Shown here: positions 82 to 2,738 of the stretch, piece by piece
Numbering within the stretch: the first letter of the stretch is position 1
Layout of the letters: every line of letters begins with the position of its first letter
IMG/VR virus record: IMGVR_UViG_3300004805_000040
Coordinates: 1-21,921 of that record
Origin: a virus
Reading direction: 5' to 3' (one strand)
DNA length: 21,921 nucleotides
Made by a program: the position numbers and the translations under genes
Notes under the pieces: generated by a model
What the model saw: the letters and a program-made list of their open reading frames with translations, nothing else
Database searches by the model: none
What the model was told of the DNA's origin: nothing

Positions 82-594
82 ATGTCTGATATCAGACCAA
101 GTATTACAGATGTAGTAGGAATACAGGATTTCGCAGTTCTATACAAGTGGAAAATTGTATTCTCTAAGGTGCCAGCAGGACTGGATAAGTATCTAGGAGG
201 GCTTTTAAATCTATACGCCCTCTCCTCGGAATACCCTAAATTTTCCGAAGAAGAGATAGAGACCACAATGCATGGTAAGAAGGTCTATCAAGCTGGCATG
301 AGAACGTATGATCCAATAACTATAACTTTTATAGAAAATAATAGTGCAATTATACAGAAGTTTATAAAAGCTTGGGCAGCTCTCATAAATACTCCCAACG
401 AAGAAGGTCAAAAAGCTAAGAAAGATTACGTATGCCAGATACAACTTTCCCCGTTAAAGGCTGACGGAGGTAATCTGGCTTCATACAACCTTGTGAATTG
501 TTGGATGCAGACTCACACGATAGGAAACCCAGATGGTAGTGCGAATGAGACTATCAAACCAGAAATTACTTTGAGATTTGATTATTTTGATTAA
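82..594 (+). CDS. tail tube protein, T4 gp19-like
   Basis: A 170-residue protein of the size and pattern of T4 gp19-like tube proteins, which stack as hexamers to form the inner tube of a contractile tail. An N-terminal beta segment (KWKIVFSKVP) is followed by a loop with a Ser-Glu-Tyr-Pro element. Next comes the family-typical stretch where a basic GKKVYQAG strand leads to Tyr-Asp-Pro-Ile-Thr-Ile-Thr-Phe and then a helix with a Trp (KFIKAWAALI). The C-terminus is another beta strand ending FDYFD. AGGAGA at 69-74, 7 nt before the ATG, supports this start. It follows the presumed sheath gene, the usual order in T4-like tails. A related but distinct tube-fold gene lies at 1335-1880. Confidence 0.82.
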   Translation: MSDIRPSITDVVGIQDFAVLYKWKIVFSKVPAGLDKYLGGLLNLYALSSEYPKFSEEEIETTMHGKKVYQAGMRTYDPITITFIENNSAIIQKFIKAWAALINTPNEEGQKAKKDYVCQIQLSPLKADGGNLASYNLVNCWMQTHTIGNPDGSANETIKPEITLRFDYFD

Positions 595-1334: not shown

Positions 1335-1880
1335 TTGGCAAACGGTTTTACATCTAATAATCTCAAAGGCCAATCTATATCTGATATAGGTTCCGTAGCT
1401 TGGGGTTTAGGGTTTAATTATCTAGTAACTATTGATAGGATAAAATCACCATTTACGGGGAATGTTGCTCTTGGGAATGTCATACCTTGTTATCAAGTAC
1501 AAGAGAAGATCCCATTAATGAAGTCTATGCAAGTAAAGTTACCCATGTACGGAAACTTTAATATTCCCATTGGGATAGAGTTACCTACATTAACAGTATC
1601 TTTATATGATGACGAGAATTGTATTGTCGAGAAATCTATAAAAGACTGGATAAATGACATATTTTACACGGGAACTTCTATAAGAACCTTAGATGAAAAT
1701 ACCACGAAGCTAACGGTATTTAAACTATCATCAAATAAGAAGATAACACTAATGACGAGTTATGAAGTATACCCAGAAGGGGATTGTCAAGTAACAATGG
1801 GTTCCAATATTACATTAAAAGAGTTGAATGTAAATTTCAATGTTGTTTATATATATCCTAGGGAGGATTTTACCGTTTAA
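1335..1880 (+). CDS. second tail-tube-like structural protein
   Basis: 181 residues starting at TTG, with AGGGA at 1322-1326 and no in-frame ATG that would keep the conserved start. The layout resembles the tube fold of gp19-like proteins. A strand near VTIDRIKSPF is followed by a loop with basic and proline residues (KLPMYGNFNIPIGIELP). Then come TLTVSLYDDEN and a helix with a Trp (KSIKDWINDIF). The C-terminal half is strand-rich and ends in a region rich in Asn and Val. Sequence identity to the tube protein at 82-594 looks low. It could be a tube-terminator, a tube-initiator (gp48/gp54 type) or a minor tube subunit; the position before the chaperone and tape-measure genes does not decide this. 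It shares its first four residues (MANG) with the tape measure. Confidence 0.6.
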   Translation: MANGFTSNNLKGQSISDIGSVAWGLGFNYLVTIDRIKSPFTGNVALGNVIPCYQVQEKIPLMKSMQVKLPMYGNFNIPIGIELPTLTVSLYDDENCIVEKSIKDWINDIFYTGTSIRTLDENTTKLTVFKLSSNKKITLMTSYEVYPEGDCQVTMGSNITLKELNVNFNVVYIYPREDFTV

Positions 1881-1903: not shown

Positions 1904-2638
1904 ATGGAAAATTCAAGAAAGTATTTACCTAAATATCAAGAAAAATGGCTACCTTCGGGAAACTTGCAATACCCCGATGGAGTTAACATACATTACTATC
2001 CTTTTTCTTTTGGAGAAATTCTAAAGATAAATCAATCAAATCTGGATGAGATAGCTATGTATAATATGATGTTAGAAGGTGTTGAAATAATAGGTATGCC
2101 AGTAGAGGATTTAACTTTCTACGACGCTTTATACTTAGGGTGGAGACGAAAGACAGCTAGTCTAGGCGTGTCCATGTTAGACATAAAATCATACTGCCCC
2201 AACTGTGATACAACCAACATAACTGTTTTTGATTTAACAGAGTTAAAGTATATAGATGTTGAGATGAAGGCGATGCCCGCTAAAACTGTGATATGTGGAG
2301 AAGAATTACATTTTGGATTTATTACGATAAAAGACTATATGGAGTTACAATCTAAAGATCTACATAAAGACGTACTAGCTGTGTATGCTAAATCAGTAAC
2401 CAATAGGAGTTACGAGGAAGCCTATGAGATTATATCCAGTGCTATGGGGAATGACGTAGATAAGTTAGAGACACTTAATAGAATTCTATATCATGGAGTA
2501 AAGCCCATAAATGTGACATGTAGAGGTTGTGGTCAAGAGTATGCTATAAGAATAACAGACTCCTCGGAGGTAGAGATTCTCAAACCCTTTCGTGGAGAAG
2601 AAGTCATTATACGAGATGAAATTTCTTTTGGCGACTAA
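1904..2638 (+). CDS. T4 gp26/gp51-like baseplate/tail assembly chaperone with split zinc knuckles
   Basis: 244 residues. The N-terminus (LPSGNLQYPDG followed by YPFSFGEIL) matches the pattern of the T4_baseplate family (gp26/gp51), small proteins needed for hub and tail assembly. Two CxxC pairs, C98-C101 (CPNC) and C206-C209 (CRGC), lie about 105 residues apart and could together bind one zinc ion. Between them is a mostly helical region. The gene sits immediately before the tape measure, the standard place for a tail assembly chaperone. Its 3' end overlaps a second open frame (2574-2735) with a CCC-T sequence suited to +1 frameshifting, so a longer form of about 277 residues is likely. Start supported by AAGGGAT upstream of the ATG. 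Confidence 0.68.
   Translation: MENSRKYLPKYQEKWLPSGNLQYPDGVNIHYYPFSFGEILKINQSNLDEIAMYNMMLEGVEIIGMPVEDLTFYDALYLGWRRKTASLGVSMLDIKSYCPNCDTTNITVFDLTELKYIDVEMKAMPAKTVICGEELHFGFITIKDYMELQSKDLHKDVLAVYAKSVTNRSYEEAYEIISSAMGNDVDKLETLNRILYHGVKPINVTCRGCGQEYAIRITDSSEVEILKPFRGEEVIIRDEISFGD
2585..2590 (+). promoter_or_regulatory. candidate +1 translational frameshift site (CCC-T)
   Basis: In the chaperone frame the ribosome reads AAA CCC TTT CGT. A proline tRNA on CCC can re-pair one base forward on CCT; CGT is probably a slow codon in this AGA-rich genome. The new frame then reads TTC GTG GAG and stays open to 2735. The window that allows a shift is 2574-2638, bounded by a TAG at 2571-2573 in the new frame and by the chaperone stop. 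Confidence 0.45.
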
Positions 2639-2738
2639 CGGGGTAGTAGATGCTTGGCATGTTAATGAGCTTCTGTATAGTGAAGTCAGAGTACATTACG
2701 GATCTTTAATTAAAAAACTAAAAGAAGAGAATAGATAA
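2616..2738 (+). CDS. small overlapping frame: frameshift extension of the chaperone, or a separate 40-residue protein
   Basis: From the ATG at 2616 this frame encodes 40 residues, with a helix-rich end containing WHVNELLYSEV and a Lys/Glu-rich C-terminus. It overlaps the last 23 nt of the chaperone gene and its stop TAA shares one base with the tape-measure ATG (TAATG). The frame is +1 relative to the chaperone and is open back to 2574. No well-spaced ribosome site precedes the ATG: GGAG at 2594-2597 is 18 nt away. That argues for expression as a fusion, joined near proline 228 of the chaperone to make about 277 residues. Many phage tail assembly chaperones come in such short and frameshifted long forms. 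The alternative is translational coupling. Confidence 0.55.
   Translation: MKFLLATNGVVDAWHVNELLYSEVRVHYGSLIKKLKEENR

Follow-up and report, generated by a model that had tools for sequence, protein, structure and literature searches.

The tail assembly chaperone gene in a 21,921-nucleotide stretch of viral DNA (IMG/VR record IMGVR_UViG_3300004805_000040, positions 1 to 21,921; here called the window) very probably encodes two forms of a T4-type chaperone, produced by a conserved +1 frameshift in which tRNA-Phe would slip from UUU to UUC. Comparison with related genes makes the +1 frameshift itself, leaving aside how the slip occurs, close to certain. Both reading frames, the shift site, and a Shine-Dalgarno (SD)-like stretch ahead of it are conserved far beyond chance.

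We infer that ribosomes translating this gene shift at UUU_C, a programmed +1 ribosomal frameshift through which one gene would yield two proteins. The majority would stop at 2638 and release a short chaperone of 244 residues. Some would hold tRNA-Phe on UUU (2588-2590) in the P site while CGU waits in the A site, and the tRNA would slip one base forward onto UUC (2589-2591). The shifted ribosomes would read the +1 frame to 2735 and complete a long form of 277 residues. If the pair works as gpG/gpGT does in lambda, the short form would coat the tape measure protein and the long one would recruit tail tube subunits.

The chaperone locus

The features of the locus are listed in Table 1. The sequence and the open reading frame (ORF) list place the open +1 frame at 2574-2735, with its TAA stop at 2736-2738. 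The landmarks picked out by a sequence-only reading of this DNA are all present: CCC-T at P228 (CCC at 2585-2587), then TTT (2588-2590) and CGT (2591-2593), the WHVNELLYSEV peptide, and 49 extra residues. The long form would thus join P228 to 49 residues read one base over. As in G/GT-type systems, the gene lies directly upstream of the presumed tape measure gene, and the TAA of the +1 frame shares its last A with the ATG of this 826-aa ORF (TAATG). Pfam and PHROGs returned no tape-measure family match for the 826-aa protein. In several relatives the gene 3' of the chaperone carries the name transglycosylase, glycoside hydrolase, chitosanase, or endolysin, and a wall-degrading domain may be fused into that gene; Pfam and PHROGs found no such domain in the window's 826-aa protein. 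Two tail-tube-like genes, both matching phrog_45, precede the chaperone. The window contains no tRNA gene.

Table 1. Features of the chaperone locus in the window, in order of position
Feature	Coordinates	Strand	Remarks
Tail tube protein, T4 gp19-like	82..594	+	phrog_45, E 8.9e-19
Second tail-tube-like protein, immediately before the chaperone	1335..1880	+	phrog_45, E 1.5e-4
Tail assembly chaperone, short form, 244 aa	1904..2638	+	gp26/gp51-like (PF12322), two CxxC pairs
SD-like GGAGGT	2566..2571	+	candidate stimulator; 13 nt before CCC, 16 nt before TTT
Shift site CCC_TTT_CGT	2585..2593	+	codon skew and conservation across kinds
Putative core slip tetranucleotide TTT_C (tRNA-Phe, UUU to UUC)	2588..2591	+	TTT_CGN in 43/47 kinds; proposed slip after PMC3498833 (extract)
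+1-frame extension, 49 residues and stop; C-terminal part of the putative long form	2589..2738	+	
TTTGGC	2627..2632	+	encodes Phe-Gly in frame 0 and, in many kinds, Leu-Ala in +1; conserved in both
Presumed tape measure protein gene, 826 aa	2738..5218	+	named from position and relatives

Relationship to T4 gp26 and gp51

The assignment to a gp26/gp51-type chaperone holds: residues 17-220 match PF12322 (T4_baseplate, gp26/gp51) with 30.3 bits against a cut-off of 24.5, and the protein also matches the phrog_150 baseplate hub family. Among relatives, 15 of 20 viral-contig members match PF12322 at E 0.01. Six of 12 chaperone records match at E 0.1, three of them above the cut-off, and the other six are tied to the family only through the A8 profile. 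Profile comparison aligned window residues 27-227 with T4-type gp26 (E 5e-8) and detected part of gp51 (1.2e-6). The gp26 alignment ends at residue 227, which adjoins P228.

T4 has two PF12322 genes, the short gp26 and the long gp51. The domain spans nearly all of gp26 but about 201 of the 249 residues of gp51, so that about 48 C-terminal residues are uncovered. The two-gene arrangement was not found in the 12 records tested; each gave a single chaperone match to the A8 profile (12/12), although the contigs may be incomplete. These records include a 170-kb contig that carries the same chaperone gene as the window. The extensions of 28 of 31 kinds, with phiLo, Carin-5, and GN1 omitted as the most divergent, were compared with the gp51 tail. 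The match had P 0.014 and a probability of 3%, and 3 of 100 column shuffles scored as high, a weak resemblance that is no more than suggestive of homology between the extension and the gp51 tail. It appears that T4 encodes the short and long forms separately where the relatives examined here shift frame. Some T4-like phages carry a short gene and a fused long gene (Vladimirov et al. 2022, as cited in extracts of PMC10885494 and PMC12846349, where the genes are unnamed). An extract of PMC5009743 lists T4 as the exception to the conserved tail-chaperone frameshift, and poly-T −1 signals are described in TAC-N genes of T4-like phages (extract of PMC12846349).

Relatives of the chaperone

A tblastn search identified 27 phage records with a divergent chaperone homologue. 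A separate search with the +1 peptide gave weak matches (E 0.007 to 0.8) in 14 records, 11 of which were tblastn chaperone records; the remaining three were jumbo phages. In one of these, phage EC001, the extension matches at E 0.4 an in-frame segment close to the C-terminal end of a protein of 412 residues (L017, 1960-3198), which may be a long chaperone encoded in a single frame. No relatives came out of three viral-contig scans.

The comparison set consists of 47 kinds (31, a holdout of 14, and L093 and L095) taken from representative phage records, viral contigs, and two genome contigs. Duplicates, including those of one contig, and near-identical copies (IME392, 1.031, Aura, Voja-6, and YerA41) were removed. 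Eight further Rhizobium and six further Pseudomonas tblastn records were left out, together with L091 and L092, which are cut short by their contig ends, and L094, whose site and extension equal those of IMG/VR record L065. L094 is contig NZ_WEHZ01000015.1 of a bacterial assembly (Pseudoalteromonas peptidolytica) and carries a chaperone of the PF12322-type family. Pairwise identity among 45 of the 47 kinds has a median of 30% and a maximum of 69%. Two relatives carry chaperone annotations that are probably wrong: "DNA methylase" in Thermus phage phiLo (L011, 2974-3720) and "peptidase domain-containing protein" in Rhizobium phage RHph_TM39 (L005, 2953-3738). In GR11A, the +1 frame and the large gene that follows it are separated by an extra 167-residue ORF (L012, 3925-4428).

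Conservation of the second frame

The +1 frame crosses the chaperone stop in 47/47 kinds, whereas the −1 frame runs open from the site past that stop in 2/44, which bears out the +1 direction first read from the window alone. The alignment of relatives that had been proposed as a check shows both the site and the second frame conserved, and a broken second frame, which would have spoken against a shift, was found in 0/47 kinds. By sequence comparison, all 47 kinds have a conserved second frame that a shift would reach. The holdout kinds, collected with peptide patterns far upstream of the shift site, all have CCN TTT CGN and an open +1 frame (14/14). The first ORF of at least 80 aa starts within 30 nt of the +1 stop in 41/47 kinds, a count that takes whichever such ORF comes first, tape measure or not.

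The overlap was compared with synonymous shuffles of its frame-0 codons, ignoring kinship. The +1 frame is open in 29/29 kinds against 18.7 expected (joint p 1.3e-8), and the −1 frame in 2 against 3.3 expected. Similarity of the +1 peptides is 18 s.d. above synonymous frame-0 shuffles in the 22 of 31 kinds that align free of gaps, again with kinship ignored. In the same 22 kinds frame +2 is likewise raised, by 9 s.d., and frame 0 given +1 by 14.7; these z-scores are overstated because the 22 kinds were picked for their common TTTGG spacing. Among the most constant bases are some that fall third in a frame-0 codon and second in a +1 codon, such as the T at offset 23 (22/22). The chance that the overlap is a sequencing error or a decayed gene that makes a single protein is negligible, since all 47 kinds, which come from named phages as well as metagenome contigs, show the same frame relation.

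The +1 frame might instead be a separate small gene, translated by coupling from ATG 2616 (40 residues) or GTG 2592. Annotation goes some way with this idea: the +1 frame is its own CDS in 5 of 16 annotated records and unannotated in 11. Start codons were counted between the site and the stop in the 44 sense-site kinds, that is, the 47 minus three stop-type kinds in which this interval is nearly nil. An ATG, GTG, or TTG occurs in 41/44, often as the TTG inside TTTGGC, but 27/44 have no +1-frame ATG, and Ab1-TPeters, phiLo, and L069 (3/44) have none of the three codons. With the stop-type kinds included, 30/47 lack ATG and 6/47 lack all three. Conservation also reaches back to the Pro-Phe-Arg site and includes the third base of the Pro codon, which a separate gene would not need. 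The most favorable case for a separate product is L095, where the site is AAA TTT CGT and an ATG directly behind the stop has a good SD. The start-codon counts make separate translation unlikely as a general explanation, single phages aside, and for the window we regard it as very improbable. A frameshift remains the preferred route to the +1 frame.

Codons at the proposed shift site

UUU_CGN lies in the zero frame, inside the overlap, in 43/47 kinds, the window included. The codon before it in these 43 is CCC in 28, CCG in 7, CCT in 4, CCA in 3, and AAA in 1, and the Arg codon is CGT in 38, CGC in 4, and CGA in 1. A Pro codon is retained at the site in 46/47 kinds. Codon choice at the site was compared with other columns of the alignment, kinship being ignored in each case. 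Site Pro is CCC in 30/45, compared with 5/36, 11/45, 8/41, 5/45, and 4/37 at five other Pro columns. Site Phe is TTT in 42/42, compared with 20/36 and 21/37 at two upstream Phe columns, and site Arg is CGN in 42/42, compared with 22/43 at one other Arg column. Columns inside the overlap are likewise skewed (TTT 37/37 and GGC 32/39 in TTTGGC); the TTT of this third Phe column is fixed because +1 coding of Leu forces it. At the site itself, the need to encode Phe-Val in the +1 frame accounts for part of the constancy of TTT and CGT but puts no constraint on the third base of the Pro codon. Synonymous shuffles based on local codon usage gave an expectation of 3.6 CCC codons at the site against the 21/28 observed (kinship ignored).

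The UUU_CGN core is scarce elsewhere in these loci. Phe-Arg pairs outside the site are TTT_CGN in only 18/127 cases, and TTT precedes CG- codons in 17/55 cases compared with 224/452 before other C- codons (p 0.0099, a post hoc comparison), as if the TTT-CG pair were avoided outside the site.

The sequence-only reading had assigned the slip to tRNA-Pro, re-paired from CCC onto CCU. In this version UUU would occupy the A site during the slip, and the parallels are CCC_UGA or CCC_UAA in Listeria phage PSA and phage SPP1. The window does have CCC followed by U. The excess of CCC and the nearly universal Pro codon fit this assignment, as do the CCC codons before a stop in Yersinia GN1 and L093, CCC_UAU in Va2, and the published CCC_U +1 sites (extracts of PMC5009743 and PMC6316719). 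The comparison of relatives goes against it. CCC is absent from 15 of the 43 UUU_CGN kinds, one of which has AAA, while UUU_CGN stays. CCC_U alone is also unremarkable, because 8 of the 20 genes inspected have an in-frame CCC followed by T at other positions. Moreover, UUU is no stop codon and nothing marks it as slow. We consider a tRNA-Pro slip unlikely. CCC is over-represented yet dispensable, so UUU_C is taken as the slip and the Pro codon as a helper. The codon pattern thus makes tRNA-Phe moving from UUU to UUC, the slip published for influenza PA-X, the most likely one here, favored over CCC to CCU, with the Pro codon as a booster. Both tRNAs would be able to re-pair in the +1 frame at CCC_UUU_C, which may explain the preference for CCC. 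The protein product is identical whichever of the two slips.

Exceptions to the site

Four of the 47 kinds lack UUU_CGN: three stop-type kinds and Vibrio Va2. Va2 has CCC_TAT_TCA, and the codon before it is TTT, which places TTT_C one codon earlier (TTT_CCC). The stop-type sites read AGGGGGTAC CCT TGA in Cobetia Carin-5 (L023, 3500-3535), AGGAGTTAT CCC TAG in Yersinia GN1 (L025, 3735-3755), and GGGGGTAT CCC TAA in L093 (3225-3250). The +1 cassette of release factor 2 (RF2, prfB) has an SD about 3 nt before the slip codon and a stop codon in the A site. In sequence, Carin-5, GN1, and L093 look like this cassette (SD, 3-4 nt, CCN, stop), and they are the only kinds that do. The window and the other 43 kinds, in contrast, have no stop at the site, and their SD-like stretch, where present, is farther away. 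The window is not an RF2-type cassette, since UUU follows CCC and the SD-like stretch is 13 nt away.

Candidate stimulators

Anti-SD pairing of the 24 nt before the site exceeds that of synonymous shuffles in 39/43 kinds (p about 2e-8), and nine control windows along the gene show no such excess. This comparison indicates that the SD-like stretch upstream of the site is under selection. A review gives SD spacings of 3 nt for +1 sites and 9-14 nt for −1 sites (extract of PMC5009743). The spacing in the window (13 nt to CCC, 16 to UUU) is odd for a +1 site because it is nearer the −1 range. Two other routes to the frame would be −2 slippage and transcriptional slippage. The −2 and +1 frames are identical, and the spacing resembles that of backward shifts. 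However, the sequence offers no tRNA re-pairing two bases back at CCC_UUU, and the site lacks the long homopolymer run that transcriptional slippage would use. Backward slippage by two bases and transcriptional slippage are together even less probable than a separate gene, and the forward slip remains the preferred reading.

Downstream RNA structure was not found as a stimulator in three windows (mean z −0.07 to −0.34). A slight tendency toward structure was seen in two upstream windows (mean z −0.8; 7 and 5 of 31 below −2). UUU_Ynn is described as especially +1-prone in bacteria (extract of PMC5009743). Codon rarity would not account for a pause at CGU, since E. coli uses this codon at 20.2 per 1000 (extract of PMC3498833, table).

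The two predicted protein forms

AlphaFold2 modeled the 49-residue extension alone, from 20 sequences, with a pLDDT of 92.2 and helices at residues 4-16, 24-27, and 30-48. The extension is thus predicted to be a stable small helical unit. The short form was modeled with a pLDDT of 87.7 that drops to 57-66 beyond residue 220. Fold searches gave no match at E 0.001 for the extension against viral models and no significant match for the short form against the PDB. No consistent family emerged when 31 extensions were compared with Pfam and PHROGs. The zinc-knuckle label given to the chaperone earlier fits the window, where C98, C101, C206, and C209 are at least 90% conserved across 20 sequences of its nearer group, but it does not extend to the family, since two strict CxxC pairs are present in 14/47 kinds and none in 8/47.

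Discussion

The arrangement described here resembles that of lambda gpG/gpGT and other frameshifted chaperones, in which the gene lies just before the tape measure and has short and extended forms (extract of PMC5009743). Lambda and most of the others shift −1, whereas the shift here would be +1, at another type of site, and in a PF12322 protein. The closest matches to the site are found elsewhere. The influenza PA-X site, UCC_UUU_CGU, shares the UUU_CGN core and a CC-containing codon before it (extract of PMC3498833), and plant amalgaviruses share the UUU_CGN +1 core (extract of PMC5052127). Those are RNA viruses on eukaryotic ribosomes, whereas the gene in the window belongs to a bacterial DNA virus and has an upstream SD-like stretch. 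In the HF1 group of archaeal haloviruses, TTT-CGC has been proposed as the +1 site of the tail chaperone, with the same motif, gene position, and direction; there the site is very near the stop and concerns one group of six aligned genomes (extract of PMC7230728). Homology between the HF2 chaperone and the window's family was not found (hmmsearch E 0.13 in a two-sequence file). An extract of PMC5009743 rates HSTV-2 as very likely +1.

Phage structural genes with CCC next to U and a +1 shift include Listeria PSA tsh/cps and SPP1 gene 17.1 (extracts of PMC5009743 and PMC6316719). In SPP1 17.1 and PSA tsh a stop follows CCC, whereas in the window the sense codon UUU does, and other codons can stand in for CCC among its relatives. 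The tail chaperone of SPP1 itself is classed as −1 (extract of PMC6316719).

The components of this system are already known, and the literature searched did not show them combined in this phage group. A UUU_CGN +1 site in this group was absent among the literature matches listed, a search that mostly lay outside subscription journals. We lean slightly toward the broader view that the whole T4-type tail lineage uses CCN_UUU_CGN with an internal SD at backward-shift spacing as a sense-codon +1 signal, and that one branch swapped it for an RF2-like stop cassette.

If this account is true, UUU_CGN would be a +1 signal common to bacterial, archaeal, and eukaryotic ribosomes. The 43 natural versions of one sense-codon +1 site offer material for testing UUU_CGN on bacterial ribosomes, and the SD spacing rules are testable on the same sites. 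The annotation of these genes would be corrected as well, the +1 frame being a separate CDS in 5/16 records and absent from 11/16. For these relatives of the T4 proteins, a single gene with a forward shift appears to supply both chaperone forms, and this would link the two designs.
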